DNA of 36,003 nt from a virus: positions 1-36,003 of IMG/VR virus record IMGVR_UViG_3300036903_000029. The stretch is one strand, 5' to 3'. The notes beneath the pieces are model-generated. The model saw only the letters and a program-made list of their open reading frames with translations, did not search any database and was not told the origin of the DNA. Both the position numbers and the translations under genes were made by a program. Of this stretch, positions 18,403 through 36,003 are shown in pieces (position 1 is the stretch's first letter; the number at the start of each line of letters is the position of its first letter).

Positions 18403-18416
18403 ATTTCAGTGATTCT

Positions 18417-19370: not shown

Positions 19371-19374
19371 GACT

Positions 19375-19896
19375 ATGCCCTGCGATCTAAGCAAGCCCGG
19401 TTTTAAGAATCTGAGGCGAAGTGATTTCCCGCCATATCCGCTGGTCACCATAGAACAAATCGTATCGTCCGCGCGGACGTATATCGGCACGCCATTTCGC
19501 CATCAAGGACGCGAAAAGGGGAAAGCGTGCGACTGCGTGGGCTTGCCGCTGATGGTTGGCGAAGAGCTGGGCCTCGTGGACACGCTCGGCAATCCATTCA
19601 CTCGTTACGACCACGTCAACTATGGAGCCCAGCCGGGCGACGACATGGTCCTGCGAATCTGCCGGCAGCGCCTGGTTGAAATGCCTGAAGGCCACCAGAT
19701 CCAGCCAGGAGATCTGCTGGCCATCAAGAATCCGCGCATCGCCTGCCACGTGGGAATTGCCACTATGTTGCAAGGATCGCTGGGCGTGATTCACGCGCTG
19801 GATATTTCAGGAATTCGCCGCGTGGTGGAGCACGGGCTGCGTGGTTACCACGTGTCGCACATCAAGGCTATTTTCACTTTTCCGGGGATTGAGTAG
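19375..19896 (+). CDS. NlpC/P60 cysteine peptidase of the tail tip (GTA g14-like)
   Basis: It encodes 173 residues. The catalytic cysteine is C54 in the DCVG motif and the histidine is probably H125 in ACHVGIAT; a third polar residue would follow near VIHAL. The family cuts peptidoglycan stem peptides, here probably to let the tail pass the wall during injection. Order after DUF2460 and DUF2163 is the GTA order. An alternative start at GTG 19444 would remove a short N-terminal segment. The stop TAG overlaps the GTG start of the next gene. Confidence 0.93.
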   Translation: MPCDLSKPGFKNLRRSDFPPYPLVTIEQIVSSARTYIGTPFRHQGREKGKACDCVGLPLMVGEELGLVDTLGNPFTRYDHVNYGAQPGDDMVLRICRQRLVEMPEGHQIQPGDLLAIKNPRIACHVGIATMLQGSLGVIHALDISGIRRVVEHGLRGYHVSHIKAIFTFPGIE

Positions 19897-20789: not shown

Positions 20790-20795
20790 GACTCC

Positions 20796-22634: not shown

Positions 22635-22643
22635 GGAAAACGA

Positions 22644-23426
22644 ATGAGCACTCCCAGCCTGGCCCTCGCCTACATCGCCAACAATCAGAACCAGGGCGAA
22701 GTCCCCTGCAATGCCGCGTTCCTCGGTCTCGACCTGGCGACGAATGCCGAAGCCTCCTGGCCGACCGGCGGCTCGGATGTAACGCTGACCCAGGCGCAGC
22801 TCGCTTCAGCCATGGTCCACGTGCTGAGCGGCGCGCTCACTGGTGACAAGCATTTGATTTTGCCGGCCAGCGTGCCGCGCACCTTTATCGTGGTGAACGA
22901 AACCACCGGCGGCCACAACATCATCGTCGAAGTTACTGGCGCGCCTGGATCCACCGTCAGCCTGCTGGCGAGTGCGGGCTACGCGCTCGTCTATTCGGAC
23001 GGCACGAATGTGGTTGAGATCTCCGGAGGCGGCGGAGGGGGCGGCGGCTCAGTCACATCCGTCGGGCTCAGCATGCCGCCAGGATGGAGCGTCGGCGGAT
23101 CGCCGGTCACGAGCTCCGGAACTCTGGCGGCTACGCTCAACGCGCCGCTGGCCAAGTCCGTCAGCTATGCGCTGGCTGATGCCGATAACACCGTGCTTTT
23201 CACCACTGGTTCGAGCGCGCTCACAGCGACGCTGCCCACCGCGGTGGGGATTGCCGCTAAGCGCTCCACCATCAAGAAAGTGGATTCCGGATCCGGAGCG
23301 GTCACCATCGCGACGACGTCCTCGCAAACCATTGACGGGCAAAGCTCCTGGAGCCTGCCCAACCAGTTTCAGTACCTCACTGTCGAATCCGACGGCAGCA
23401 ATTGGTGGGTCGTCGCCAACAATTAG
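22644..23426 (+). CDS. Tail fibre / collar-type protein
   Basis: It encodes 260 residues in two beta-rich parts joined by a run of eight glycines (residues ~130-137). After the linker comes SVTSVGLSMPPGWSVGGSPVTSSGTL, a stretch common in phage fibres, and a C-terminal domain ending QFQYLTVESDGSNWWVVANN, which recurs widely at fibre ends. The N-terminal part probably attaches to the hub. AAGGA precedes the ATG. It likely belongs to the receptor-binding apparatus. Confidence 0.75.
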   Translation: MSTPSLALAYIANNQNQGEVPCNAAFLGLDLATNAEASWPTGGSDVTLTQAQLASAMVHVLSGALTGDKHLILPASVPRTFIVVNETTGGHNIIVEVTGAPGSTVSLLASAGYALVYSDGTNVVEISGGGGGGGGSVTSVGLSMPPGWSVGGSPVTSSGTLAATLNAPLAKSVSYALADADNTVLFTTGSSALTATLPTAVGIAAKRSTIKKVDSGSGAVTIATTSSQTIDGQSSWSLPNQFQYLTVESDGSNWWVVANN

Positions 23427-23434
23427 GACAAAAC

Positions 23435-25378
23435 ATGCGCAAACTATTGTCATTGTGCTGCCTTCTGGCGGCCGTTTTTCTTGTCAGCCTATCGGCATTC
23501 GCCCAGGGCGGCGCCGCGACGGATACCCGCTACGGCGGTTCGCTGCCTGGCGCGTGCAACACGCACCAAATCTTTTCCTTGGTCAGCGGCGGCAATGCTA
23601 CCTACGAAGGCTGCACGTCCACAAACACTTGGTCGGCTTTCGCCTTGGGAAGCGGCACCACCTTCCAGGTGGACGGCACGGGACTTTCGTCCTCGAGCAC
23701 GGTGAATTTTCAGGATGCCCTCGCGTTCAACGGCCTGACGCTAACTTTCACCAATCCCTCGGCGGGCAATGTGAAGCTGGTGTGGAGCGGCACGCTGGGC
23801 AATGCCGGGCTAACCAATTCCAGCATGACGGTGGGATCGACGAGCTGCACGCTGGGATCCACCTGCGCTCCATCCACCACCGTGAATGGAACGAGCTGCG
23901 TCCTGGGTTCGACTTGCACCGTCACCGCCAGCGGCTCGGGCGTGAATCTCTCCATCCCCAACGACACGACCACCGGCACGACGGTAAACAAGCTCGCAAA
24001 AATGACTTCGGTGCAGAAAGCCATCATCACCGCGACCACGGATACAATCGCGCTACAGATTGGAATCGTGACCGCCAATGCGGGAACTTCCGGGACAGCC
24101 ACGATTGCGATCTCCGGCGTAGGCGTCTCCTGCGTATTCGATGGCGGCACCACCGCGGGCGACTACGTGATTAACTCCGTGACGATCGCGGGCGATTGCC
24201 ACGACACCGGAAGCAGCACTTACCCGACGGCCTACGGAAACACGGTGGGCATGGCGGTTGCCACCAACAGCGGCGCGGGAACTTACACCGTGAACATGAA
24301 CAATGCGCCGACCGGCAACGGAATTGGCGGCGGCATCGTCGGCCGCTCGGCTGACAATGCTTTCAACATGCTGGCGCTTTGGACTGGCCCGACCTCACTA
24401 GGAATCACGCCCACCGACATGGGCGGAAACGGGTGGGGAGTCCAGCGGAGTACTGGACAACTTATTGAGGGAAGCTGCTGCGGCGGCTCAACGACAGGAA
24501 TGATCGACTTGCAACCAACCTCCGGAAATGGCTACAGCTTTGAAATTAACAGCGGTGCTGTCGTCTACGGATACGGGATGAACAACGCGGCGGGACACTG
24601 CCTGTGGTGCGCCTACAGCCAAAATAATTCGTCATCCTTCGGCGCGCGTGAAGTTCTTGATGGCTCGCTGACCATCGCCACGTTTCAGGCTGTGGGCCCA
24701 ACCCACACTGCACGCCTGCAGGTGCTCAATACGACTGCCGATTCCTTTCAGGATGCGCCGGCCACCACCACCCAGTTTGGCGCCATCGGCCTAGGCGAAA
24801 ATACCTCGCTCTACAATCTCGGCTTCGATGCGGACGGCGTCAGTGGATGCCTGGCAGACAACACCATCACAATCGGGCACTACTTGAGTTTTGGCACAGG
24901 GACTGCCGCATATTGCCGCGACATCGGCACGGGCTGGTTTTATCCGGGAGACATTATCGGCCAGGCCATGAACTCGGTTTCCGGCGGCGCCACGGCCGAC
25001 GTCGTGCTGAGTCATGAAGTCCGCGGCGGCGCGTATGCGGCGGCGTTGCCGGTGGATTCCGCCGCGCAAACCAGCAGCATTGGATCCACTTCCCTCCTCA
25101 CTCCGAGCGCCAACGGAATGTTCCGCGCGTGCTATTACTTCTCCACCACCACGGCCGGATCCGCTGGCACAGTCAGCCTCAGCTTCACTTATACCGACAA
25201 TGCTCAGGCTGAAACGTTTGCCACCAGCACCATCAATCTGGCCACGCTGGGAGCCAATCTGGGCGGCTGCCAGGAGTTCTACGCGCTCACCAGCGCGGCG
25301 CTGAAATACCTCACCACTGTCTCCGGAGCGAGCGGCAGCCCGCAATACGATCTTCACCTGCGTATCGAAGCCGAATAG
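23435..25378 (+). CDS. Large fibre-like protein with a Sec signal peptide
   Basis: It encodes 647 residues from ATG 23435, 9 bases after the previous stop. The start RKLLSLCCLLAAVFLVSLS, then AFAQGG, is a complete signal peptide with a likely cut at AFA-QG. The mature part is Thr/Ser/Gly-rich and contains repeats of the type GSTSCTLGSTCAP / GTSCVLGSTCTV, common in phage fibres. The C-terminal 130 residues (SAAQTSSIGSTSLLTPSANGMFRACYYFSTTTAGSAGTVSLSFTYTDN ... YDLHLRIEAE) form a jelly-roll-like end. Length and position say fibre; the signal peptide says secreted. Which is right is not settled by sequence. Confidence 0.75.
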   Translation: MRKLLSLCCLLAAVFLVSLSAFAQGGAATDTRYGGSLPGACNTHQIFSLVSGGNATYEGCTSTNTWSAFALGSGTTFQVDGTGLSSSSTVNFQDALAFNGLTLTFTNPSAGNVKLVWSGTLGNAGLTNSSMTVGSTSCTLGSTCAPSTTVNGTSCVLGSTCTVTASGSGVNLSIPNDTTTGTTVNKLAKMTSVQKAIITATTDTIALQIGIVTANAGTSGTATIAISGVGVSCVFDGGTTAGDYVINSVTIAGDCHDTGSSTYPTAYGNTVGMAVATNSGAGTYTVNMNNAPTGNGIGGGIVGRSADNAFNMLALWTGPTSLGITPTDMGGNGWGVQRSTGQLIEGSCCGGSTTGMIDLQPTSGNGYSFEINSGAVVYGYGMNNAAGHCLWCAYSQNNSSSFGAREVLDGSLTIATFQAVGPTHTARLQVLNTTADSFQDAPATTTQFGAIGLGENTSLYNLGFDADGVSGCLADNTITIGHYLSFGTGTAAYCRDIGTGWFYPGDIIGQAMNSVSGGATADVVLSHEVRGGAYAAALPVDSAAQTSSIGSTSLLTPSANGMFRACYYFSTTTAGSAGTVSLSFTYTDNAQAETFATSTINLATLGANLGGCQEFYALTSAALKYLTTVSGASGSPQYDLHLRIEAE

Positions 25379-25409
25379 TTTCCCCCCAGTTTTTCCCCAG
25401 GACAACCTC

Positions 25410-26456
25410 ATGGCTCTAGTCTTCTGCGACAGCTTTGATCACTACACCAATCCAAGCCAGAAGTGGGACCTGGTGGGCGTCTCCGGCATCTATCCGCAGA
25501 TTCAGTCCGCCAGTGTGCGCACCGGCGCGCAGGCACTCGAGATCGCGAACGCGCTGGGGCGTGCGCCAGTCTTCGTCCAGAAAAACATTCCCACCCAGGC
25601 AACCTACTTTCTGGGCTTCGCCCTGAACGTGATCAACAATTCGATCCAGATTCCCATTTGCGAATTCCTCGATAGCAGCCAGACGCAGGTCGGTCTATTC
25701 CTCGATTCCGGCGGACACTTCCAGTTCTATCGCGGCAGCATCAGCGCCGGGTACGTCCTGCTGGGTTCGCCTTCCTCGCAAGCATTGCCGTTTGGCTGCT
25801 TCCATTACATCGAAGTGAAGGTCGCCATCGACCACATCTCCGGCCAGTGTCAGCTTAATGTGGACGGCACGGTGTGGCTTACCCTCGCCGACCAGGATAC
25901 CCAGTACACCGCCAACCCGCTGATCGGCGCCATCACCATCAGCTCATGGGATCTCGGCTTCGACGCCAATAACTTTCAGGCGTTCGTTGACGACGTATAC
26001 ATCTGCGACGATAGCGGAACAAGCTGCAACACCTTTCTCGGCAATATACAGATTCTGTGCGGCATGCCCGACGCCAACGGCACAGCCAACACCTGGACGC
26101 GCGGCGGCACCAACCTGGGAACCAACTACAAGCAGGTGTACGAAATCCCTCCGGACGACGACACCACCTATCTCGAAGATGTCGCCGCGACCTACATCCA
26201 GGCGGCCTGCTATTCAGGAACGACTGCGGCAGCCGAGCCGGTGATTCCCTTCGTGCCGCCCAGCTCCTATGCCGACGGCCAGGGATTCTTTCCGGTGGAT
26301 CCAAATACCGGCTCGCCCTGGGGAACGTCAGCTCTCACCGCCGCGCAGTTTGGCGTGATAAGTTCCGACGGCTCGATCGATCGCTACCTCTTTCCCATCC
26401 TGCCGACCACGGTCATCATCGCCGCCGCCGTAAACATGCGCGCGAAGAACGCCTGA
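25410..26456 (+). CDS. Tail-end protein with lectin-like (LamG/ConA-type) N-terminal domain
   Basis: It encodes 348 residues and no signal peptide. The first ~210 residues (FCDSFDHYTNPSQKWDLVG ... FGCFHYIEVKVAIDHISGQCQLNVDGTVWLTLADQDT ... FQAFVDDVYICDDSG) follow the pattern of concanavalin-like jelly rolls used for glycan binding. The second part (GNIQILCGMPDANGTANTWTRGGTNLGTNYKQVYEIPPDDDTTYLED) is seen with this domain in other phage tail-end proteins. It probably binds surface sugars. Confidence 0.8.
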   Translation: MALVFCDSFDHYTNPSQKWDLVGVSGIYPQIQSASVRTGAQALEIANALGRAPVFVQKNIPTQATYFLGFALNVINNSIQIPICEFLDSSQTQVGLFLDSGGHFQFYRGSISAGYVLLGSPSSQALPFGCFHYIEVKVAIDHISGQCQLNVDGTVWLTLADQDTQYTANPLIGAITISSWDLGFDANNFQAFVDDVYICDDSGTSCNTFLGNIQILCGMPDANGTANTWTRGGTNLGTNYKQVYEIPPDDDTTYLEDVAATYIQAACYSGTTAAAEPVIPFVPPSSYADGQGFFPVDPNTGSPWGTSALTAAQFGVISSDGSIDRYLFPILPTTVIIAAAVNMRAKNA

Positions 26457-26472
26457 GCTCTTTTCGAATCCC

Positions 26473-27888
26473 ATGCGAAAAATATTCCTGTTTTCATTCC
26501 TGCTGCTGATTACCCTTTTCGGATCCTCCGCGCGAGCCCAGTATCCGACGGGAGTGTACGCGGTCACGCCCAACAGCACGGCGAATGGCTACCTGCTCTC
26601 CCAGGCCAACGTGAAGGGCCAGGTAATCTTCGTGCCATGGTCCACCATTGACAACGGCAGCGGAACTCTGGATTGGAGCACGGTGGAAACGGCAATCGCG
26701 CCCTGGGCCGGAGCAGGCAAAAAAACTGCTCTGGTAATTTGGGGAGTGACCGCCGATAACCTCAGCGTCACCGCCGCCCCTTCATACGTTCTCAACCAGC
26801 TCCCCGCCATGGTGAGCTGCGCGGTGAACGCCGGCACCGGCTACGCGCCCAACTTCACCAACCCGATTTTTATATCCGCGTACAGTGGATTTCTGAATGC
26901 GACGATCGCCAGGTATGGAAGCGATTCGCGCATCGGCTTCATTCGCGTCGGGCTGGGCGCCGGAGGCGAGATTTTTCCGCCGTGCAAATCTCAGGAGGAA
27001 AGCACCTACGGATTGACCCAGGCCGGATATCAGTCCTACCTCGAAACCATGATCGGCAACGTTCCCCCGGGCAGCAACCCGGTGCAGGTCGGGGTGGATT
27101 GCTATGGCGGGAATTGCAATTCCACCACCATCGCTCTTTCCAATAACATCGCGGCGTACGCGGTCGGCGCGCGCTGGGGGATCGGCAAGGAGTCCCTGCA
27201 GGATTCCGACATCACCGCGTGGAATTCCGGCCAACCCTGCGACGCCAACTGGTGCGCCCAGTTCGCCGAATATCCTACGGCGTTTCACGATCTGCAGTTC
27301 GCCGTGCCCACTTGCCCCGATGGCAACTGCGCAGTGGGATCGCCCGTTACCCTGCTGCCCTTTGCGGCCACGCGCGACGCTCAGGTAGTCGAAATGGCCC
27401 AGCCGGATTACTGCATCGCCTACGGACCGTCCTGCTCGGGAACCTATACCGCGGCTTATGACGCAGCCATCGCGGCCTTCGACGCCGCAGCGGGATCCAC
27501 GTGGACTCCGTCGGCTCCCACCAATTTCCAGGTTACTATCGTCCCCGGACCGGATGCCGGCAACGTGACGCCCGGATCGCTAAACCTCAGCTTCACCGCC
27601 GCCGATACGGTCAACGGCAATGCCGCGCCGCTGAGTGGCCACGAAATTCTGTTGGTGCGCAATACCGATACGTCCGCTCACAACTTCACAATCTATTCCA
27701 CGCCCGATTTCTTCCTTCGCACCGGCGACGTCGGCCCCTATTCGCTCGCCGGCGGCGCCACGGCCGGCTTCAGCTTTCTCGGCGGAGATCCCGTCGGGCC
27801 CCTCGGCTGGCGCCAACCTGACGGCGGAATGCACATCCTCGCCGATGACACCCACGTCCAGTTCGTCATGCTCGGCGCACATCTCTAA
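26473..27888 (+). CDS. Exported TIM-barrel (glycoside hydrolase-like) protein with C-terminal beta domain
   Basis: It encodes 471 residues. A clear signal peptide (RKIFLFSFLLLITLFG, then ARAQ) leads into a region resembling TIM-barrel glycoside hydrolases: VKGQVIFVPWSTIDNGSGTLDWSTVE, KKTALVIWG and IGFIRVGLGAGGEIFPP, where the glutamate could be the acid/base. A second acid, in VVEMAQPDYC, could be the nucleophile. Residues ~365-471 repeat the domain of the 10156-10617 protein (TAADTVNGNAAPLSGHEIL ... FSFLGG ... GWRQPDGGMH). It may act on host polysaccharide, either on the virion or outside the cell. The exact glycosidase family was not identified. Confidence 0.7.
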   Translation: MRKIFLFSFLLLITLFGSSARAQYPTGVYAVTPNSTANGYLLSQANVKGQVIFVPWSTIDNGSGTLDWSTVETAIAPWAGAGKKTALVIWGVTADNLSVTAAPSYVLNQLPAMVSCAVNAGTGYAPNFTNPIFISAYSGFLNATIARYGSDSRIGFIRVGLGAGGEIFPPCKSQEESTYGLTQAGYQSYLETMIGNVPPGSNPVQVGVDCYGGNCNSTTIALSNNIAAYAVGARWGIGKESLQDSDITAWNSGQPCDANWCAQFAEYPTAFHDLQFAVPTCPDGNCAVGSPVTLLPFAATRDAQVVEMAQPDYCIAYGPSCSGTYTAAYDAAIAAFDAAAGSTWTPSAPTNFQVTIVPGPDAGNVTPGSLNLSFTAADTVNGNAAPLSGHEILLVRNTDTSAHNFTIYSTPDFFLRTGDVGPYSLAGGATAGFSFLGGDPVGPLGWRQPDGGMHILADDTHVQFVMLGAHL

Positions 27889-27924
27889 ATATTCAAATTT
27901 ACTTATCTCCTGGAGGTTTCAACG

Positions 27925-28335
27925 ATGAGATTCAAATATGTAGCTCTAATAGCTCTTTTCTGCCTGGCGGGATGCCTGGCGGCGTGCAACGATTCGAGCG
28001 CGAGTCAGCTCAACGCGAGCTGGGATTACACATTCGCGCCGGCGGGGCAGCAGGGCGCGGCATGTACGGCCACGCAGACCACCAACTGCATTCCCAGCTT
28101 CACCGTCGAAGACATCAGCAACGCGCAAGACCCCGTCCCGGAAGCCACTGTCGCCGCGCCGGCATTGTCGGTTACCGCGACAATTGCCACGCCCACTTAT
28201 GGGCCCCACATTTACGGAGTGGTGGCCAATGTGGTGAACGCGAACGGCAGCACGAGCAGCTCGCCGGTTTCGAGTCCGATCACCGTGACGATTACCGCTC
28301 CCGCTCCCACCGGCTTCGCCATCACCGTCATATAA
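27925..28335 (+). CDS. Small lipoprotein with Ig/fibronectin-like beta domain
   Basis: It encodes 136 residues. A lipoprotein signal with hydrophobic core and candidate lipobox LAGC (or LAAC a few residues later), then CNDSS. The mature part is Thr/Ala/Val-rich, with ASWDYTFAPAGQQGAACTATQTTNCIPSFTVED and an end rich in TVTITAPAPTG, which looks like a fibronectin type III-like or Ig fold. GGAGG precedes the ATG. Possibly a surface lipoprotein made during infection or lysogeny; alternatively a late structural protein with a dispensable hydrophobic start. Confidence 0.7.
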   Translation: MRFKYVALIALFCLAGCLAACNDSSASQLNASWDYTFAPAGQQGAACTATQTTNCIPSFTVEDISNAQDPVPEATVAAPALSVTATIATPTYGPHIYGVVANVVNANGSTSSSPVSSPITVTITAPAPTGFAITVI

Positions 28336-28409
28336 CCATCCGCGAGGCGCTGCGCCAATTGCGCGCGGCGTCCTCGCCCTGCCACTTCGGGCACCAAAAG
28401 GCCTGACAC

Positions 28410-28658
28410 ATGATCCCCGCTCAAAACTACGAAACGCCGCTTGCCCTCGCTTTACTCGTCCAAGTTCTCTTCCTCTTGAAATACTTTTACCGCCGTATGC
28501 GCGATGGCGAGATCGAGCGGAAGTTTGTCCGCGACATGGCCACCAATCACCTGCCCCACATTTACGACGCGCTCACCAAGATCTGCCGGGCCAAGGGCAT
28601 CGAGCTTGGCGAGCCTCCTCCGATCCGCTGGATGGATTTCGAGGAGCACGGGAAATGA
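28410..28658 (+). CDS. Small one-pass membrane protein of the lysis cassette
   Basis: It encodes 82 residues. One membrane segment (residues ~9-27, TPLALALLVQVLFLLKYFY) is followed by a highly charged tail RRMRDGEIERKFVRD. The positive charges after the helix suggest a cytoplasmic C-terminus, which does not fit an i-spanin. The stop overlaps the transglycosylase start (ATGA). A holin-type or lysis-regulating role is inferred from place. Confidence 0.7.
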   Translation: MIPAQNYETPLALALLVQVLFLLKYFYRRMRDGEIERKFVRDMATNHLPHIYDALTKICRAKGIELGEPPPIRWMDFEEHGK

Positions 28659-29089
28659 CGCCTCCAACAAAAGAAGATCTCATCGCCCTGGCCAAGGCCG
28701 CGGCGATCCGGCACATGCTGGCGGCTCCGCTGGTGTGCGCTGTGGTTGAACAGGAATCCGGCTGGAACGCGTGGGCGGTGCGGTACGAGCCGGCGTTCCG
28801 CGTGCGCTATGTTGCGCCATTACATCTGCCGCCCACGCTTGAAGTCTGCTGCTCGATCAGTTGGGGATTGATGCAGCTCATGGGCCAGTGCGCGATCGAG
28901 GATGGATATCCCGGGAAGATCCCCGCGCTATGCGATCCCGCAACAGGGCTCGAATGGGGCTGCGTCCACCTGGTGAAGAAAATCTCCGAAGCGCGCGGCG
29001 ATCCTCATCGTGGCCTCGAGCTCTGGAACGGCGGCGGCAATAAAGATTATGCCGATCAGGTTTTCGCCCGCGTTCCGCGCTACCAATGA
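28655..29089 (+). CDS. Lytic transglycosylase (endolysin)
   Basis: It encodes 144 residues with the soluble lytic transglycosylase fold: VVEQESGWNAWAVRYEPAF (catalytic glutamate most likely E34), then SWGLMQLMG and GLELWNGGGNKDYADQVFARV. This phage endolysin type cleaves the glycan strands of peptidoglycan. No signal peptide, so release needs a holin. Coupled both upstream and downstream by ATGA overlaps. Confidence 0.92.
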   Translation: MTPPTKEDLIALAKAAAIRHMLAAPLVCAVVEQESGWNAWAVRYEPAFRVRYVAPLHLPPTLEVCCSISWGLMQLMGQCAIEDGYPGKIPALCDPATGLEWGCVHLVKKISEARGDPHRGLELWNGGGNKDYADQVFARVPRYQ

Positions 29090-29280
29090 AGGCGCTCGCG
29101 GCCGTACTACTTTCGCTCTGCTCGGTGAGCTGCGCTTTCATTCCCCAGGCGGCGCCCCCGGGAAGCACTTACCAGGGAGTGACAGCCAAAGCTCCCATTG
29201 CGATTCCCGTTTGGCCGGGACATCCCAGCCTGCCACGGCTGCGCAGGAAACCGGCCGGCGGCGATTACTACGATGAATAA
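29086..29280 (+). CDS. Small lipoprotein, o-spanin candidate
   Basis: It encodes 64 residues. A short signal ends at a lipobox-like SVSC with C16 as lipid site, followed by a proline-rich mature part (IPQAAPPGST, PVWPGHPSLPRL). Small outer-membrane lipoproteins rich in proline next to an endolysin are typical o-spanins, which fuse inner and outer membranes in lysis. No clear i-spanin partner with a periplasmic coiled coil is present, which weakens the call. Confidence 0.65.
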   Translation: MKALAAVLLSLCSVSCAFIPQAAPPGSTYQGVTAKAPIAIPVWPGHPSLPRLRRKPAGGDYYDE

Positions 29281-29560
29281 CAACACGAAAATATGGCTGC
29301 ATGGACTCGGCGCGGCGCTCATTGGTGGCGGGGCAACCAGCGTGGTTTCCGCCTTCGGCGCGTCCATGATCGACAGCGCGAAATTCAATCTGCAAACCGC
29401 GCACGGCGTGGCCAGCACGTTCGGGCTGATGGGGATTACTTTTCTCTGCGGCGGAATTTTGAACACGATGTTCTACCTGAAGCAGTCGCCGCTCCCGGTG
29501 GTACAGGTAAGCGTCACGAAGACAGAAACCACGCAAACCGATCTCACCCTGGTCCGGTAG
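29273..29560 (+). CDS. Two-helix membrane protein, holin candidate
   Basis: It encodes 95 residues from ATG 29273, overlapping the preceding gene by 8 bases. Two hydrophobic segments: WLHGLGAALIGGGATSVVSAFGA (about residues 8-30) and VASTFGLMGITFLCGGILNTMFYL (about 46-69). A Thr-rich hydrophilic tail follows (VSVTKTETTQTDLTLVR). Small two-helix proteins in a lysis cassette are usually holins. Family not recognised by sequence. Confidence 0.7.
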   Translation: MNNNTKIWLHGLGAALIGGGATSVVSAFGASMIDSAKFNLQTAHGVASTFGLMGITFLCGGILNTMFYLKQSPLPVVQVSVTKTETTQTDLTLVR

Positions 29561-29572
29561 TAGTTTTATGTA

Positions 29573-29600
29573 TTGCGCAATTGGGTGCTTGTGGTACCAT
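29573..29600 (+). promoter_or_regulatory. Candidate promoter before the 29611 gene
   Basis: TTGCGC (29573-29578), 16 bases, then TACCAT (29595-29600) with an extended TG. It shares GGTACCATTCG[C/G]GCC with the candidate at 13231-13258. The ATG at 29611 lies only about 4 bases after a start site at the usual distance, which would make a nearly leaderless message. Confidence 0.35.
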
Positions 29601-29610
29601 TCGCGCCATT

Positions 29611-29901
29611 ATGACTCCACCTGATAATTCCAAGAGCACCATTTCCAAAGTCTTCTTCGGCATCACGCCCGAAAAACATGCGGAGATCGTCGTCGCCGCG
29701 GCCAAGAGCGGTTTCGATGTGGGCGCCGATACCGGACAGGCCACGTCTCACGGAGTGGTTTTCGGCTGGGTCTATGATCCCGCCAAGCAAACCCTCACCG
29801 TCACCGGGCTGGACAAGAGCCACAAGGGATGGCTGGTTCCGGACGACTGGGGAAAAATTCTTAATATCCTCGCCGAGAAAATCGGCGCGGCGACAGCGTA
29901 A
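29611..29901 (+). CDS. Small unknown protein after the lysis genes
   Basis: It encodes 96 residues from ATG 29611. No signal. The segment SHGVVFGWVYDPAKQTLTVTGLDKSHKGWLVPDDWGKILNILAEKI gives a compact alpha/beta appearance. No Shine-Dalgarno is visible just before the ATG, in line with near-leaderless expression from the promoter candidate above. Family not recognised. Confidence 0.65.
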   Translation: MTPPDNSKSTISKVFFGITPEKHAEIVVAAAKSGFDVGADTGQATSHGVVFGWVYDPAKQTLTVTGLDKSHKGWLVPDDWGKILNILAEKIGAATA

Positions 29902-29919
29902 AAATAAAACGGAGGAAGA

Positions 29920-30318
29920 ATGGCAAATAAGTTTCTGAGTTTTCTGGAAAAAGTGGGCAAGGACCTGGTGAAGTACACGCCGGAGGGCGAAGCGGTGGCC
30001 AACGACGTGGCCGCATTCATTCCCGGCGCCCTGCCGATCCTTACCACCGTCGAGAACGTTCTCGCGCCGATTGTGAAAAACATCACTGCCGCGCAGGTGG
30101 CCCAGGCGGCGAACCCCAATATGACCAGCGCGCAGCAGGGATCCATGGCCGTCAGCCTTTCGGCTGATTCGGTGGTCGAGGAATTCTCCGCGCTCGGCTA
30201 TCCGCTTTCTGCCGCGGAGCAGGCGCAAATCGCCAAGCTCGTCGCCGATGCCAACACCGCTCTGGTGGGAATCCTCAACTTCCCCACGAGCACCACGCTC
30301 GCGGCGAAACCAAGCTAG
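29920..30318 (+). CDS. Unknown helical late protein
   Basis: It encodes 132 residues: MANKFLSFLEKVGKDLVKYTPEGEAVANDVAAFIPGALPILTTVENVL, then Ala-rich helices. No signal. GGAGGAAG just before the ATG is a very strong ribosome binding site. Similar small helical proteins occur near phage lysis genes, but I cannot name a function. Confidence 0.7.
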   Translation: MANKFLSFLEKVGKDLVKYTPEGEAVANDVAAFIPGALPILTTVENVLAPIVKNITAAQVAQAANPNMTSAQQGSMAVSLSADSVVEEFSALGYPLSAAEQAQIAKLVADANTALVGILNFPTSTTLAAKPS

Positions 30319-30391
30319 ACATCCCCTGTTGGGATCGCGCTGGCGGGCCGCGTAAAAGTCCGCCTTCAAATTTCAACCGCGGAGAGGCACC

Positions 30392-30703
30392 ATGAAAGCT
30401 GTAACGATTCACGCACTCGCAATTCTCGTTTTGGTTTTGGCCTCGATCGGCTTTGCGCACGCGCAGTCCACCAGTGGATGTCCGCAGAGCGCGTCCGTGA
30501 AATGCCCCACGGTGCTGAATCCCGGATCCGATGAATGCCCGGGCTCGGGCCCTGGCACGGCGAAAGGCCACGCTATGTCGGCCAGTTGCGCTATCGCGTG
30601 CGCCAAGGCGGACAAGGCGAAAAAGGTCGCCGCCAAAAAGTCCAACTCTCTTCCCTATTGGTGCAAGCCGTGCGATCTGCTCGGCTGTGGTCCCAATTTT
30701 TAA
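30392..30703 (+). CDS. Cysteine-rich exported peptide, unknown
   Basis: It encodes 103 residues. Signal peptide with cleavage likely after FAHA (residue 24). The mature ~79 residues contain eight cysteines (C30, C38, C49, C66, C70, C91, C94, C99), an even number suited to disulfides, and a lysine-rich middle (KADKAKKVAAKKS). GGAGAGG lies before the ATG. It could be a secreted effector, a binding peptide or a toxin-like product; no family recognised. Confidence 0.65.
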   Translation: MKAVTIHALAILVLVLASIGFAHAQSTSGCPQSASVKCPTVLNPGSDECPGSGPGTAKGHAMSASCAIACAKADKAKKVAAKKSNSLPYWCKPCDLLGCGPNF

Positions 30704-30765
30704 GATCTTGCGAGCGGAAGCAAAACCTTCCTTCGCATTAGACACAACCTAAAAAAGACGCAGTG

Positions 30766-30812
30766 CCGTAACTCCGAGAGCTGGTGCAGTCCGGAAACAG
30801 GGTTACGGAGTT
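30766..30812 (+). ncRNA. Candidate structured RNA with two mutually exclusive stems
   Basis: CCGTAACTC (30766-30774) pairs with GGGTTACGG (30800-30808), 9 bp with one G-U. The overlapping AACTCCG (30770-30776) pairs with CGGAGTT (30806-30812). The two stems cannot form together. A strong terminator follows at 30819-30844, before the 30866 gene. This could be a small RNA ending at the terminator or a leader that switches. Not matched to a known class. Confidence 0.4.
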
Positions 30813-30818
30813 GTACCG

Positions 30819-30844
30819 AGGGGAGCCGCCAGGCTCCCCTTTTT
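30819..30844 (+). terminator. Rho-independent terminator
   Basis: Perfect stem AGGGGAGCC / GGCTCCCCT with GCCA loop, overlapping and followed by a run of T. Located 22 bases before the next gene's start codon, so it ends the preceding transcript or attenuates the next. Confidence 0.85.
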
Positions 30845-30865
30845 AATTCCCAAGGAGAAATTCCC

Positions 30866-31333
30866 ATGTCCGCCAAAACCGCAAATCTCGGCCTAACCAA
30901 CGCCTACGGCGTAGCGGTGGCCACGCACTCGCCGGCAAACGGCGATTACGACAAGGTTCACGCGCAAACGCATGACGCCAACATGGCCATCCTGGACACG
31001 ATGCTCGGCACCGTCCAGCACCTTACCGCCAACGGCGCCATCGCCTTAAAGCCCGGCCTCGTTATTCTGGATAAGGCCACGGCTCTCCTTGCCACGCTCG
31101 CCCTTCCCGTCTCTGGACTTCCCTCCGCGACGCCTCCGGGCAACGACGGCCTGGTGATGACTATCGTCGGAAAGACCGCGCACGCCCACACCGTCACCAC
31201 GCCGGCCGACGGGATCAATGGCGCGGACGATACGGCCACGTATGCGAACGCCGGCGATTCCGTCACTCTGGCGGCCTACGGCGGCGTCTGGTATTCCGTC
31301 GGCACGCCCACCGCTGCGCTCAGCGAAGTTTAA
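30866..31333 (+). CDS. Fibre-like late protein, unknown
   Basis: It encodes 155 residues without signal. It reads NLGLTNAYGVAVATHSPANGDYDKVHAQTHDANMAILDTML, then a beta-rich region ending ANAGDSVTLAAYGGVWYSVGTPTA. The GDSVTL...GVWYSVG pattern resembles ends of phage fibre subunits, such as the 22644 product. AAGGAG precedes the ATG. A structural role is likely but not shown. Confidence 0.65.
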   Translation: MSAKTANLGLTNAYGVAVATHSPANGDYDKVHAQTHDANMAILDTMLGTVQHLTANGAIALKPGLVILDKATALLATLALPVSGLPSATPPGNDGLVMTIVGKTAHAHTVTTPADGINGADDTATYANAGDSVTLAAYGGVWYSVGTPTAALSEV

Positions 31334-31402
31334 TCCTCGCCGAAGGACCTAAACCGAAGTTGTAAATCCAACACCAGGGCTTTTTGCCCGGAGGGTATAG
31401 CT

Positions 31403-31699
31403 GTGAAATCACGCTTACGTTTGTTTCTGGCAGTTGCAGTGCTCGCGCTGGGCGCGAGCTTTGCCGTCCATCACGCCAATGCGGTTCCATTCACTCGCCA
31501 TTGGCTTGCCACCCATGCCGCTGTCCGTCCGTCACACTCGTTAACCGATGGTGGCGACAACAAGTGCGGTCCGCATCCGCGCTGCTGGCCCGGAACGACT
31601 TCACCGGTTCCACCCGAACCTCCTGTGACTCCGGCAGGGACGACCTCGCCAGTTCCACCGGAAACCTGTCCTCCGATGCCGCCCGATCAGTGCAGGTAA
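31403..31699 (+). CDS. Small exported proline-rich protein
   Basis: It encodes 98 residues from GTG 31403, with GGAGGG 10 bases upstream. Signal peptide: KSRLRLFLAVAVLALGAS, then cleavage near ANA. The mature end carries a short repeat, GTTSPVPPE twice, and three cysteines. Short proline-rich exported proteins may span or bind the cell wall. Function unknown. Confidence 0.6.
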   Translation: MKSRLRLFLAVAVLALGASFAVHHANAVPFTRHWLATHAAVRPSHSLTDGGDNKCGPHPRCWPGTTSPVPPEPPVTPAGTTSPVPPETCPPMPPDQCR

Positions 31700-31714
31700 A
31701 CCCATTCCGGCAGC

Positions 31715-31813
31715 GGCCCCGCTAAAAGCGCGGGGCCACGATCCAGCCGGCAATCACGCGGGGCGTCGTTCGTTGTAGCTCATAAGCTACAGCGGGCGCG
31801 CCCCGCTTTTTTT
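31715..31813 (+). terminator. Three hairpins in a row ending in a rho-independent terminator
   Basis: Stem 1: GGCCCCGC (31715-31722) with GCGGGGCC (31730-31737). Stem 2: TGTAGCT (31774-31780) with AGCTACA (31785-31791). Stem 3: AGCGGG (31791-31796) with CCCGCT (31802-31807), followed by seven T. This ends the rightward late transcripts where they meet the leftward gene at 31817-32485. Confidence 0.75.
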
Positions 31814-31816
31814 ATT

Positions 31817-32485
31817 TCAATCCTGGAAGTCAGCAGAGTTGAGATGCATATCTCCATCCACGAAGGCGGGAAATTCCGTACCTTTAGGAATGGTCAAGTC
31901 CTTGCCGTGGACTAGAAGAAAAAGAGGCGCCGCGGGCCAGAAGACCACGGCTGTCGCAACTATTCCAACTGTCATTCCCCCGATGTGACCACCACCGTTA
32001 CCACCTTTCGTAGCACGGATGGCCGCTTTCTCTCCGTCGGGAAGACGGACGAAATCCAGAGCGATCTCCAATTTCCCGCCACGAGCCATCCGTCTCTTGG
32101 GCTCCGCTTCCGTCACCGTTCCAATCGCCGTTGAACCTTTGGGAATCACAATTACGCCGCCAGCTTTCACCTCCTCGAGCACCTCGAACTCGACGTTGTC
32201 ATTCAGGTGGGCATCGGACGACGATACGGTCTCGGCAATGCGCAAGCGAACGGGCGTGCTCTCCTGGAGGATGATTGGTTTGCCGACGATGGGAGGTGTA
32301 ACGAAGGAGCCTGAGACCGTGGGCGGCGGTACGATTATTACTTTCGGCCTTGGGGCGCGCGGCCGAGTAGTTTCGGCGGCAGGCTTTACGCTATCCGGGT
32401 TAACCAGATTCCAGTCGTTCAATCCCTGCGCACCGGCGGCGGACGCCATGCCGAGCAAGATTGTAGCCAGCAAGAAATTTTTCAT
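31817..32485 (-). CDS. Exported acidobacterial-type envelope protein (likely cargo)
   Basis: It encodes 222 residues. Signal peptide (MKNFLLATILLGMASAAGAQG). After a proline-rich linker comes TPVRLRIAETVSSSDAHLNDNVEFEVLEEVKAGGVIVIPKGSTAIGTVTEAEPKRRMARGGKLEIALDFVRLPDGE, then a hydrophobic segment (VGIVATAVVFWPAAPLFLLV) and KDLTIPKGTEFPAFVDGDMHL. I recall this layout from many acidobacterial chromosomes; the precise role is not known to me. It faces the late genes and sits next to the att region, as typical for a moron acquired from the host. It is the best clue to host phylum. Confidence 0.8.
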   Translation of the reverse strand: MKNFLLATILLGMASAAGAQGLNDWNLVNPDSVKPAAETTRPRAPRPKVIIVPPPTVSGSFVTPPIVGKPIILQESTPVRLRIAETVSSSDAHLNDNVEFEVLEEVKAGGVIVIPKGSTAIGTVTEAEPKRRMARGGKLEIALDFVRLPDGEKAAIRATKGGNGGGHIGGMTVGIVATAVVFWPAAPLFLLVHGKDLTIPKGTEFPAFVDGDMHLNSADFQD

Positions 32486-33076
32486 GGTTCACCCCGAAGC
32501 GAAGGAAATGCACGGTGAATGCCAAAGCGACGGTGAGTGGAGCGAGTGGACTAAGTGGCGGGACCGGGGCGGCTATTCGTCCGCCCCGTTTGTTCGCGGC
32601 GGCCAGTCAAATAAAGGGGTAGTTGGGGGTGACTGGCCGCCAAACTCTATGGCGAGGGAATTCTAGCCCAGCCCCAAAACCATGTCTGTACGGTTTTGTA
32701 CGTATGTGGGGGAATCCGATCGGAGACGCAGGCCAGCTCATCGATGTCACCTGCCGGTGACGGTTATCGCTTGACCGCGCCCACGAGTAAAGCGTTAGAG
32801 CTCGGGGCCAGGATGGCCAGCGCCGCGATTCCTCTGGCGTACGGCAAACGATTTCGGGGTTACTCGAGTAAACGGGCGAGGGGTTTTGAAGGGCGTCTTA
32901 AATCGCCTCTATTCGCTACACGCAGGATTCATAGTCCTGCGCGTACCGTTGGAGTGGCTGATCGTTTGGCGCTCGCCCCGGACAGGCCGGGACTCGACGC
33001 GACTCATTCTTTATTTTATATGGGATTTACGCCTAACCGTGACTCGCCAAGACTGCCCGAAACTCGACAGAACATC
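32486..33076. other. Noncoding interval with hairpins, palindrome and integrase arm-like repeats
   Basis: No convincing gene here; a rightward frame at 32696-33082 looks random. Contents: hairpin CGGGGCGG/CCGCCCCG (32565-32572, 32581-32588); a perfect 12-bp inverted repeat (32598-32609 with 32630-32641) round a G-rich 20-base spacer; the palindrome TTACTCGAGTAA (32860-32871); an anticodon-arm-like hairpin (32921-32941); and three ACTCG[A/C]C repeats. The promoter of the minus-strand gene at 31817-32485 must lie in its left part. Confidence 0.6.
32992..33076. repeat. Three short direct repeats, candidate integrase arm sites
   Basis: ACTCGAC (32992-32998), ACTCGCC (33042-33048) and ACTCGAC (33062-33068), each followed three bases later by an AC-starting element (ACTC, ACTG, AC). 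They lie on the same strand directly beside the tRNA half. Lambda-type integrases bind such repeats flanking the att core. Confidence 0.45.
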
Positions 33077-33115
33077 TCCTAAGTCCTGCGAGTCTGCCTA
33101 TTCCGCCACTCCCGC
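33077..33115 (-). other. 5' half of tRNA-Leu(UAG): candidate attP core
   Basis: On the minus strand, from 33115: acceptor strand GCGGGAG, TG, D-arm GCGGAATAGGCAGACTCG, then 5' anticodon strand CAGGA and loop CTTAGGA with anticodon TAG. The expected 3' strand TCCTG does not follow, and no T-arm or matching acceptor 3' strand (CTCCCGC) is found beyond. One D-stem pair is mismatched (C11/T24). The end lies 8 bases from the integrase stop codon. Anticodon loops are standard crossover sites for tyrosine integrases, so this is read as phage-carried identity with the host tRNA gene. Confidence 0.65.
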
Positions 33116-33123
33116 ACGGGCAG

Positions 33124-34209
33124 TTATCCAGCGAATTCGAGCACGTTCTGGCGTTCGTCCAGGGCGTCAGTGGCTGTTCTAGTGGCTGTTGCCAGCTTTT
33201 CTACCGCGGCCCGCTGATGGTCCGGAGCCAGATGGGCGTACCGTTCCGTCATTGTAATCGATTTATGCCCTAGAAGGGTTTGGACGGTGCGGAGCGGAAC
33301 CCCCTCCATCACCAGGCGGCTGGCGAAGGTATGCCGCAAATCGTGCCACGTGAAATTATCCACCTTGGCCAGGACCAGCGCGTCCTCAAACCAACGACGC
33401 CAATCGCGCTGCCCGGCGCGCTTTGCCTCCGGAGTCACGTAGCCGGAGCCGTTGGTTCTCGAGTAAAGGATCTTTAGCGCTGTGCCGGCGGCCGAATTGA
33501 TGGGCAGAAACCGGCGGCCGGTCTTTCCCCGCACAGTCAGAATTCCCCGCCCCAGATCCACCGCTTCCCACTTCAACTGAAACTGCTCGCCACGGCGCAT
33601 TCCGGTATGCAGCGCCAGATCCAACTCCTGCTCGCGCTCGGGATATTCCCGGCGAACCACCCGACGGATCTCGCGCTCCTCACCCTCTTCCAGGAACCGG
33701 ATGCGCGCCTCGTTTTCCTTGTAGCGCTTCACCTTGGCGACGGGATTCCCTGGAAGAATGCCGGCGCGATCGGCGAACGAAAAAATGCTCGATAGCAGCG
33801 AGCGATAACGGTTCACCGTGGATCCAGAGAGTCCCGCCTGCTTCATAGCTCGCATCTTTCGCTCAATCAACGGCGCGGCCACTTCCTCGGCCAGCATGTG
33901 CTTCCAATCGGCCAGCAGTTTTTTCATGCGGATGCTATCGGCCCTCATCGTAAGCGGCGCCAGGCGCGCGTGCTTTTCATCCATAGCCTGATTGACCAGC
34001 TCGCCGAAAGTGATTTTGGGTTTCTGGCGTTGAGGAGGAAAGAAATTGCTCAATCGGATCTGGGTCTTGCGCATCCGGTAGGCTTCGACGGCGGAGGATT
34101 TCGGACCCACCTTTTCACGATGGCGCTTGCCGGCCGCGTCGTAATAATTGATGTGCCAGATATTCGATCCGCGGGGATGCTCGTAGACGCCGCGCTGGTT
34201 GGCACTCAC
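33124..34209 (-). CDS. int: Tyrosine-type phage integrase
   Basis: It encodes 361 residues from GTG 34209. This start gives an N-terminus beginning SANQRGVYEHPRGSNIW, usual for this family, and overlaps the upstream stop as GTGA; an ATG at 34269 is possible but less natural. The N-terminal arm-binding part is followed by a SAM-like core-binding domain (~residues 65-165) and the catalytic domain. Catalytic residues: R205 (HTGMRRGEQ), K229 (GKTGRR), H289 and R292 (WHDLRHTF), H315 (LLGHKSITMTERYAH) and nucleophile Y324. All are present, so it should be active. It catalyses integration and excision at the neighbouring att site. Confidence 0.95.
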   Translation of the reverse strand: MSANQRGVYEHPRGSNIWHINYYDAAGKRHREKVGPKSSAVEAYRMRKTQIRLSNFFPPQRQKPKITFGELVNQAMDEKHARLAPLTMRADSIRMKKLLADWKHMLAEEVAAPLIERKMRAMKQAGLSGSTVNRYRSLLSSIFSFADRAGILPGNPVAKVKRYKENEARIRFLEEGEEREIRRVVRREYPEREQELDLALHTGMRRGEQFQLKWEAVDLGRGILTVRGKTGRRFLPINSAAGTALKILYSRTNGSGYVTPEAKRAGQRDWRRWFEDALVLAKVDNFTWHDLRHTFASRLVMEGVPLRTVQTLLGHKSITMTERYAHLAPDHQRAAVEKLATATRTATDALDERQNVLEFAG

Positions 34210-35135
34210 TGTAAATCGTTCCCCTTGACGCAATACCCGATTGCCCCATTGGCCAATCTGAACATGCAAAAAGTACTGCGATATTTATTCCCGTAGCTGT
34301 CCTCATAAAGAATCACGCCACCTACCGCCAGCGAATCGTTAAATGTGTTCATACTGTCGATCATTTCCTGGGTTAGCGGAACTTCGCTGAAACCCGTCTT
34401 ATAGTTTTGCCCGACTACTCCCGGAGCGGCGATCGAGTCCCCCATAGCATCCATGGCGGAATGGGGGCATATTTGGTCCAGGTTGATACGTTCACTAGCC
34501 GAGAGTCCGTAGGTGAGCCCAGCGCACATGCGGAACCTCACCGCAGGGACCGGCCCACTGTTCGTAGCGAGGACAGACCACGCGGCTAGCTTCCCCGCCG
34601 TTAACTCGGGAGCATTGGCTTGAACCCACACCACCGGCCGCTGCGCCTTCTGGAAGTATCGACGGTATAAATCCAAGGTTCCCTGGCTAGTTGAAGCAAG
34701 GAGACGCTGCTGGCTAACGCCATTATGCAGCTCAGTCACTTGGTTGGCGGCATTTGTCGCCAGGACTTTCGTACTACTCGCAAGATCGTGCGTGTCGGTC
34801 CCGGAGACTTTCATTTGTTCTAGCTGGCCGCTCATCGCGGATAATTGCTTTTTCATCACACCGAGCTGTTTCCAGTAAACTCCTAGGGCCAACAGTGCTA
34901 CAAAGGCTAAGATGGCGTTGGTGGCCACGACCCACTTTTCGCCTTGAGTCCAATGAGCAAGACCTACTTTTTTTTCGCCTTTTGTTGCGTCGTCGCTCTC
35001 GCGTGCGCTTATTTCGCTCAGTACGCGTTGATTCTTCGCTCCGACGACAGAGGTCGATGGCGAAAGTGGCCTCTGGGCCGACGCCTCGTCATTGGGCTTC
35101 CCCTCTGCATTCTCTTTGTGCTCGTCACCTTCCAA
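34206..35135 (-). CDS. Single-pass membrane protein of the lysogeny operon
   Basis: It encodes 309 residues from TTG 35135, with GAGGAAA about 8 bases upstream. Residues 1-65 are hydrophilic and charged. One membrane helix follows (WVVATNAILAFVALLALGVYW, ~residues 68-88), then a coiled coil (KQLGVMKKQLSAMSGQLEQMK ...). A globular domain near residue 165 begins KAQRPVVWVQANAPELTAGKLAAWSVLATNSGPVPA, resembling a beta-sandwich. It sits 4 bases after the RHH gene and is coupled to int. Expression together with lysogeny genes suggests a function in the prophage state, such as superinfection exclusion or host membrane alteration; this is inference. Confidence 0.75.
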   Translation of the reverse strand: MEGDEHKENAEGKPNDEASAQRPLSPSTSVVGAKNQRVLSEISARESDDATKGEKKVGLAHWTQGEKWVVATNAILAFVALLALGVYWKQLGVMKKQLSAMSGQLEQMKVSGTDTHDLASSTKVLATNAANQVTELHNGVSQQRLLASTSQGTLDLYRRYFQKAQRPVVWVQANAPELTAGKLAAWSVLATNSGPVPAVRFRMCAGLTYGLSASERINLDQICPHSAMDAMGDSIAAPGVVGQNYKTGFSEVPLTQEMIDSMNTFNDSLAVGGVILYEDSYGNKYRSTFCMFRLANGAIGYCVKGNDLQ

Positions 35136-35139
35136 GCGG

Positions 35140-35379
35140 TCAATTTCCTCGTCGGCGATTAGCGGCCTTTACGGTAGACATCTGATCGCGAAGCATTTGA
35201 AGGCTACCGGCCCGCTCGTAGAGTGGGGCTGTGATTTTTAGCAGCTTTCGGGCGAGGTCCGCAAGGGGAATCTCTTCGCGCTCGGCCATTTTTTCAAAAC
35301 GCGCGTACCACTCGGCGTCGAGGCGGACGTGAATCTGGCTGCGGAGCAACCCGCGTACCAGCTTATTTACTTTCGGCAT
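35140..35379 (-). CDS. Small ribbon-helix-helix-like protein
   Basis: It encodes 79 residues from ATG 35379 (MPKVNKLVRGLLRSQ...). The piece SQIHVRLDAEWYARFEKMAEREEIPLADLARKLLKI shows a short strand, helix, turn, helix in the style of CopG/Arc proteins. It overlaps the gene before by 17 bases. Likely a DNA-binding regulator or excision factor; similarity is by pattern only. Confidence 0.65.
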   Translation of the reverse strand: MPKVNKLVRGLLRSQIHVRLDAEWYARFEKMAEREEIPLADLARKLLKITAPLYERAGSLQMLRDQMSTVKAANRRRGN

Positions 35380-35713
35380 ATCGTCCCGCTCGCTTGGTGA
35401 GATATTCCGCAATGTCATCAATGACCGCGTTGGGCGCCCGCTCGAAGATGGCATCCAGGGCGATATGCAACCGGTCCTGCAGCTCCTCGGAAACCCGCCG
35501 GGAATAACGACGCCGCTTTCCTTCCCGATAGGCTTCGAGCGATCCGCTGGATTTATATTCCTTCCAGGCCGCATCCCAAACCGCCGCCATTAAATCAGCC
35601 CGCCGCTTGAGCGCTTCACGCGTGAGCGCCGCGTCGATTTCCCGTACCTCCGCCAGTGGCCGCCGGAAACTGACCGGATAGCTGATGTCCTCAGTAGATA
35701 CCGTTTTGCTCAT
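35363..35713 (-). CDS. Small regulatory protein, possible ribbon-helix-helix
   Basis: It encodes 116 residues from ATG 35713. YPVSFRRPLAEVREIDAALTREALKRRADLMAAVWDAAWKEY could be a strand-helix-helix DNA-binding unit, then a basic stretch (YREGKRRRYSRRVSEEL) and a helical C-terminus. First gene of the leftward operon, divergent from the HTH gene, which is the usual place for cro/cI-type regulators. The promoter starts almost at its ATG, so the mRNA may be leaderless. Confidence 0.65.
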   Translation of the reverse strand: MSKTVSTEDISYPVSFRRPLAEVREIDAALTREALKRRADLMAAVWDAAWKEYKSSGSLEAYREGKRRRYSRRVSEELQDRLHIALDAIFERAPNAVIDDIAEYLTKRAGRYAESK

Positions 35714-35726
35714 TGTGACAATTGTG
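35712..35726. promoter_or_regulatory. Overlapping palindromes, candidate operator
   Basis: ATTGTGACAAT (35712-35722, perfect 5+1+5) overlaps ACAATTGT (35718-35725). Together they cover the -10 box of the leftward promoter and the start codon of its first gene, so a bound repressor would block the leftward operon. Confidence 0.5.
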
Positions 35727-35749
35727 CCTTTAGAGATTTCACTTGACAA
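35721..35749 (-). promoter_or_regulatory. Leftward lysogeny-operon promoter
   Basis: On the minus strand TTGTCA (35749-35744), 17 bases, then CACAAT (35726-35721). Predicted start near 35714, next to the ATG at 35713. Its -35 box shares bases with the rightward -35. Confidence 0.5.
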
Positions 35750-35772
35750 CGTATTTGTACTGGCCGTACTAT
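35743..35772 (+). promoter_or_regulatory. Rightward promoter of the HTH regulator
   Basis: Perfect TTGACA (35743-35748), 18 bases, TACTAT (35767-35772). The start site would be about 35779, three bases before the ATG at 35782, so a leaderless or nearly leaderless mRNA is expected, as known for lambda cI from PRM. Confidence 0.7.
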
Positions 35773-35781
35773 GCCGTCTGT

Positions 35782-36003
35782 ATGGGAACGCACACAGACA
35801 AGCGTAGCGAGCTCGCACGGCTGATGGAAAAGTGCCGTAGCGAACGGGGCATTTCGCTCCACTCCGCAGCCAAGCGGCTGGGAATCCATTACACCGGCCT
35901 GTCGAAAATTGAGCGCGGGCTCACCAAGCCACGCCGGACGACGGCATTGAAGATTGTCGATTTCCTGCGGGCGTACGGATATTTTCCCCGGGCGGCGGCC
36001 TAA
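35782..36003 (+). CDS. HTH (XRE/Cro-like) regulator
   Basis: It encodes 73 residues from ATG 35782 (MGTHTDKRSEL); an earlier ATG at 35743 lies in the promoter and is rejected. Residues ~10-60 form a five-helix XRE domain: LARLMEKCRSERGISLHSAAKRLGIHYTGLSKIERGLTKPRRTTALKIVDFL, with the recognition helix in HYTGLSKIERG. No C-terminal peptidase or dimerisation domain, so it is Cro-sized, not a RecA-cleavable repressor. It probably governs the switch together with the divergent regulators. The stop codon is the last three bases of the window. Confidence 0.88.
   Translation: MGTHTDKRSELARLMEKCRSERGISLHSAAKRLGIHYTGLSKIERGLTKPRRTTALKIVDFLRAYGYFPRAAA

Follow-up and report, generated by a model that had tools for sequence, protein, structure and literature searches.

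The 36,003-nt stretch of DNA analysed here (the window) is the whole of IMG/VR record IMGVR_UViG_3300036903_000029, from a virus known from environmental DNA only. Just past the stop codon of its tyrosine integrase gene (int1), the window holds the 5' half of a tRNA-Leu(UAG) gene, and it is highly probable that this is the native phage attachment site (attP) of a temperate tailed phage, at which int1 would recombine with the anticodon loop of the tRNA-Leu(UAG) gene of its host. The half reads GCGGGAGTGGCGGAATAGGCAGACTCGCAGGACTTAGGA on the minus strand (33115-33077) and begins at the first base of the tRNA and ends where the anticodon loop (CTTAGGA) ends. An initial annotation made from the sequence had described a 39-base match up to the anticodon loop, eight bases after the integrase stop, and had read it as an attP built on a tRNA 5' half. 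Both the match (37 of 39 bases) and the spacing (stop at 33124-33126) were borne out, and the reading as an attP gains support from a recombinant contig, from four phages with the same layout and from two integrated elements in which a 5' fragment has been displaced.

The half is identical at 37 of 39 bases to complete tRNA-Leu(UAG) genes of two species (L013 and L016), and at 35-37 of 39 bases in all 11 genomes that were found with a degenerate pattern, which belong to species of several phyla. A chance match is excluded, since the second-best place for the half within the window reaches only 23 of 39 bases. Immediately past the loop edge the host genes continue with TCCTG, as opposed to GATG in the phage, and no 3' half of the tRNA follows the site. 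The outer bound of the interval in which the strands are exchanged would lie at this edge, since the phage and the tRNA genes diverge after GGA. The integrase itself is intact, with a PF00589 match at an E-value of 2.9e-29, and its residues R225, K249, H309, R312, H335 and Y344, which we take to be the catalytic residues of the tyrosine recombinase family, are invariant across the alignment. The tRNA half lies outside the int1 open reading frame, and the site is consequently not within the integrase gene.

The same docking layout recurs in several related viruses. A scan with an alignment of int1 and the second integrase described below (int2) yielded 16 viral contigs, one of which (L084) is the recombinant contig L018 itself and two of which (L093 and L094, 28% identical) were set aside; with L002 (31% identical, found earlier) added to the remaining 13, there were 14 records other than L018 to compare. 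Four of these (G757/L080, G761/L085, G763/L087 and G758/L081) carry a tRNA-Leu(UAG) 5' half downstream of the integrase gene, oriented like it, and each half resembles the tRNA, judged against the expected stem partner, as far as the loop edge or at most four bases past it. In the 41,123-bp G758 record, a terminal direct repeat of 88 bp lies inside the integrase gene, as it would in a genome that is circular or terminally redundant, so that the half of G758 belongs to a phage attP rather than to a junction with host DNA. The distance from the integrase stop to the start of the tRNA is 8 bp in the window, 18 bp in L087 and 6 bp in a further relative, G756. In phylogenetic trees, int1 and int2 grouped together among the distant relatives with full support (100/100) and int1 grouped weakly with three of the half-carrying phages (83/74), while the history of 5' versus 3' tRNA-half use was not readable from the integrase trees. 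No earlier report naming the int1 family was found in the literature searched, which was mostly without subscription papers.

The relative G756/L079 (39,599 bp), whose integrase is 64% identical to int1, offers a different solution at the same site. The ends of this prophage are the 5' and 3' halves of one host tRNA-Leu(UAG) gene, split at the loop. When the halves were joined by a script, ARAGORN read a tRNA-Leu(tag), and the gene is rebuilt at neither junction. A complete phage tRNA-Leu(UAG) lies at L079 4664-4750, after the integrase stop, and the core is short. From its sequence, G756 is thus a candidate for tRNA-dependent lysogeny outside the phages described in PMC10865867. In the parts of that work that were available, the mycobacteriophages with this lifestyle (Fionnbharth and others) use a bacterial attachment site (attB) in the anticodon loop of a tRNA gene, and G756 resembles them in that the phage brings a whole tRNA gene of matching isotype. 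The existence of such a relative raises the question of whether the window phage, too, supplies a whole tRNA gene upon integration and leaves the host tRNA unrepaired. We regard this as very improbable: the cores described in PMC10865867 are 3' halves or about 10 bp, whereas the window has a 39-bp identity block made of a 5' half and, as far as a possibly incomplete record can tell, lacks a complete tRNA (none was detected in it by ARAGORN).

The position of the strand exchange is best illustrated by L018 (record G001, 16,145 bp), the single contig that was found in viral_contigs with the degenerate half pattern. Compared with window positions 18248-33116, L018 shows three differences, one in the phage DNA and two in the half (33099 and 33091), so that over 18248-33076 a single base is different. 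Directly past base 1 of the tRNA half, L018 switches to another integrase, int2, which is 57% identical to int1 over 213 aa. The half of L018 thus came with int2, which places the exchange on the 3' side of base 25, within the anticodon arm; the resulting interval contains the 5' strand of the anticodon stem and the 7-nt loop CTTAGGA. An exchange in the anticodon arm, as first proposed, is thus supported by this recombinant as well as by the relatives.

Most simply, L018 would stem from integration of the phage next to an older element that already occupied this tRNA gene. The integrase side of L018 carries GACACCA twice, while its far side retains the window motif CAGCCACT, which in the window is also found on the int1 side. 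As the arm motif matches the int1 side and not the int2 side, the window appears to hold the native pairing and L018 the hybrid. Alternatively, L018 could have arisen when two phages with two attP variants exchanged their integrase modules, in keeping with the mosaic nature of phage genomes and with a switch that falls exactly at the tRNA half. This origin is possible but rather doubtful, given that it needs a second exchange beyond int2, that int2 appears frameshifted and that the arm motif beside it differs from the one on the far side. A frame change separates the N-terminal part of int2 from the catalytic part (L018 4704-5925), and the gene looks broken or wrongly assembled. L018 breaks off no more than about 120 bp from int2, and no further copies of the right end of the window, of its P-arm or of the right end of L018 were found beyond L018 itself.

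The two records also invite the converse interpretation, namely that the window is a prophage junction at which the DNA left of 33077 is the phage's own, while int1 and a displaced, decaying half derive from another element already present at the same tRNA gene, L018 then being the true attP or a second junction. Identical phage DNA is, after all, joined to two integrases in two records, the half is canonical in L018 but has a D-stem mismatch in the window, and the last three bases of the window record are a stop codon, as if it had been trimmed at a gene border. We nevertheless consider a junction of this kind unlikely, since the CAGCCACT copy on the far side has its two counterparts beside int1 and not beside int2, int2 has its parts in different frames, and genes of the lysogeny type lie to the right of int1. 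The site is, in our assessment, very probably a real attP.

Putative arm-type sites around the core lend further support to the reading as an attP. The motif CAGCCACT occurs three times in the window, with both strands counted, and all three copies lie beside the core. In the five half-carrying phages (the window, L080, L085, L087 and G758), related motifs occupy similar places, near -72 and -60 on the integrase side and at about +155 to +170 on the far side: CGGGCACCA at -61 and +156 in L080 and at -59, +156 and +167 in L085, CAGCCACC at -71 and +171 in L087 (plus one distant copy on the opposite strand), and CAGCCATC at -60, +158 and +169 in G758, where the counts for these four relatives cover the 4-9 kb that were fetched. 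The arm matches of L080 and L085 exceeded those of all 500 shuffles, while those of the window and of L087 were reached in 24 and 28 of 500 shuffles, respectively, and are weak taken singly. The arm sites of the window are therefore strong only through the rarity of the motif and the spacing shared with the other phages.

The initial annotation had instead pointed to three ACTCG[AC]C repeats as arm-like sequences. The copies exist, but 54 of 266 window bins contain three-copy clusters of this type, and the copies were rejected as the main arm sites, being no denser than chance, in favour of the CAGCCACT copies, which fit better and are probably the integrase arm sites, judging by their number and placement. 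Repeated 5-mers were enriched between the core and the far arm in G758 (equalled in 0 of 188 windows) and L085 (0 of 263), an enrichment that was not seen in L080, L087 or the window, where the 5-mer count of this interval was equalled in 637 of 1782 other windows; repeats of the GAGT type may conceivably have some role. Adjoining the far arm site is a hairpin, GCAGGACTATGAATCCTGC (32922-32940, minus strand), an inverted repeat resembling an anticodon arm, with the stem of tRNA-Leu(UAG) and a different 7-nt loop. The surrounding minus-strand segment 32865-32985 folds better than its shuffles (z -3.1), and the hairpin may serve as a second integrase site of the core type or form a structured RNA.

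Integrated elements that carry a tRNA 5' half are found among distant relatives of int1 in bacterial genomes. With int1 as query, Gemmatimonadota gave three matches (2 of 298 genomes) and Planctomycetota gave 30 (17 of 199 genomes), all of them distant (28-44% identity in local alignments). A tRNA gene convergent with the integrase near its stop, the layout of 3'-half carriers, accompanied 13 of the 33 matches; six had a tRNA in the same orientation 34-268 bp downstream, as expected of 5'-half carriers, three had a tRNA upstream only and 11 had none. Displaced fragments were found in two of the six same-orientation cases, all of which were examined, and in three of six examined convergent cases, in which all were 3' fragments. 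The first of the two, G379 (Planctomycetota), has a complete tRNA-Leu(CAA) downstream of the integrase and a displaced 39-nt 5' fragment, 100% identical, 6.9 kb away; the element spans L043 921-7881 (6.9 kb), and the displaced fragment keeps its upstream TATAAT. The second, G426 (Planctomycetota), has a complete tRNA-Thr(CGT) downstream of the integrase and a 43-nt 5' fragment (95% identical) about 38 kb away. The promoter borne by the G426 element is clear, with none of 300 shuffles reaching its score, and resembles the one of the host, while that of G379 is weaker (27 of 300 shuffles). The 5'-half mode of integration is thus real in bacteria, and the G379 fragment equals that of the window in length.

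Carriage of a 5' half is a rare but already known arrangement. The claim that most tRNA-using elements carry the 3' half agrees with the Islander data, in the portion of the paper available, where 3760 of 3919 islands have a 3' tRNA gene (tDNA) fragment and 159 have a 5' fragment (PMC4383910), and a review on archaea, in the part consulted, likewise states, citing Williams 2002, that carriage of the 5' end is seldom met in bacteria. The window shares the 5' tDNA fragment with these islands but differs in being a phage attP, in belonging to a metagenomic tailed-phage family and in its conserved arm spacing. According to the accessible passages, pTN3-like archaeal integrases carry a 41-bp 5' half of tRNA-Leu and the rebuilt tRNA is cut off from its own promoter (PMC8371274, PMC5495485); there, the integrase gene is disrupted upon integration, whereas in the window the site lies 8 bp past the stop and int1 stays whole. 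For the cyanophages P-SSP7 and S-TIP37, the passages of PMC8776855 that we could draw on describe an attP that matches part of a tRNA-Leu downstream of the integrase and integration shown experimentally; these phages are T7-like, unlike the window phage, and which half is carried is not stated in those passages. What adds interest, in our judgement, is that one integrase family combines half-carrying phages, a prophage with a complete tRNA and a recombinant caught in the act.

In the proposed mechanism, int1 would recombine the anticodon loop of the host tRNA-Leu(UAG) gene with the copy in attP, presumably with CTTAGGA as a 7-bp overlap. Upon integration, the 3' half in the host would become fused to int1 and its 5' half, so that the tRNA gene would again be complete, starting 8 bp past the integrase stop, and the host promoter and the original 5' half would be displaced to the other end of the prophage. 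The rebuilt tRNA would then be transcribed from phage DNA, either through int1 or from a promoter inside int1; transcription through the integrase gene would be in line with what the consulted parts of PMC8371274 report for pTN3. The arrangement of the site suggests that the window phage may integrate by this route in its own host.

Several observations weigh against this reading. The half departs from the usual tRNA at 33099 and 33091, with an A in the D loop where other halves have T or C and a T at 33091 that causes a C.U mismatch in the D stem, and neither of the two bases occurs in any other half of the family (L018, L080, L085, L087 and G758). Since both strands of the D stem are supplied by the phage half, the host part could not repair the mismatch, and a rebuilt tRNA with this C.U pair may work badly. 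Consensus scans gave no convincing promoter before the half; the best hand-scored pair, whose score was reached in 4 of 300 shuffles, has a 15-bp spacer and a poor -10 element. The initial annotation had argued that the integrated phage must supply the promoter and leader of an essential tRNA, and of this the layout stands, while, in view of the D-stem mismatch and the promoter scans, the half may not give a working tRNA. When compared by position, 75 of 930 other places equal the 8-bp arm match of the window, which 24 of 500 shuffles also reach. Moreover, 9 of the 14 related records lack a tRNA-Leu half when the whole record is searched with up to two mismatches: seven with an intact integrase 3' end (L082, L083, L086, L088, L089, L091 and L092) have no tRNA-like match in the fetched stretches either, L090 is cut inside the integrase gene and L002 is the 31% identical one.

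Finally, the genomes searched included no host that carries this half or a close relative of int1. The exact 39-mer was absent from the genome_contigs and viral_contigs searched, from which records very near the window were possibly excluded, and none of the 11 genomes with a degenerate half has a close int1 relative, one of them having a 30% match. The best int1 matches in Gemmatimonadota and Planctomycetota reached 48% over part of the integrase and 33% over most of its length, and 246 Actinomycetota genomes, searched without a positive control, gave no int1 match at an E-value of 1e-40.

The gene content of the window fits a temperate tailed phage. Its left part encodes small and large terminase subunits, portal, protease, capsid, tape measure and tail proteins, and its right part holds int1, a weak match to an Arc-like repressor and a helix-turn-helix regulator (Table 1). 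The record ends with the stop codon of the regulator gene (36001-36003), which may reflect trimming at a gene border. Contig L003 is 99.98% identical to the window over 12 kb and has an extra 872 bp (L003 74-945) between window positions 127 and 128. Phage genes on both sides of the site and a missing 3' half, as first noted, stood up to scrutiny; the conclusion then drawn, that the DNA is unintegrated, is likely yet short of proof, since identical prophages in tandem would show this junction between them and the record may be trimmed.

Table 1. Positions of the attachment site and adjoining features in the window (arm distances are counted from the tRNA half).
Feature	Position	Strand	Remark
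Tyrosine integrase int1, 381 aa, PF00589	33124-34269	minus	stop at 33124-33126
5' half of tRNA-Leu(UAG), 39 nt, attP identity block	33077-33115	minus	match to host genes
8-bp spacer between int1 stop and tRNA half	33116-33123	minus	
Interval most likely holding the strand exchange	33077-33090	minus	within the half, 3' of the last difference between window and L018 (33091)
Probable arm-type site CAGCCACT, integrase side, -73	33181-33188	minus	in the 3' end of int1
Probable arm-type site CAGCCACT, integrase side, -61	33169-33176	minus	in the 3' end of int1
Probable arm-type site CAGCCACT, far side, +155	32953-32960	minus	
ACTCG[AC]C copies of the initial annotation	32992, 33042, 33062 (32992-33068)	plus	not above chance
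Probable lysogeny module	34206-36003		adjoins int1; strand unassigned as a whole
Gene of unidentified product in the module	34206-35135	minus	
Weak Arc-like repressor match in the module	35140-35574	minus	
Helix-turn-helix regulator in the module	35743-36003	plus	

Elements that carry a 5' half part a tRNA gene from its own promoter, so that the phage must drive a housekeeping gene of its host for as long as it is resident. More tentatively, the essential leucine tRNA of the lysogen could form the last part of the integrase transcript, with the resulting addiction holding the prophage in place and the family shifting between half and whole tRNAs; if true, this would tie integrase expression and host viability together. 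This idea builds on the short distance of 6-18 bp from integrase stop to tRNA in several members, a gap in which no convincing promoter is seen. The records assembled here provide natural versions of one site, comprising five half-carrying attPs (the window included), one prophage with a complete tRNA and one recombinant junction. The family thereby makes two questions accessible: by what means lysogens express the tRNA, and how phages change between repairing the tRNA of their host and replacing it.
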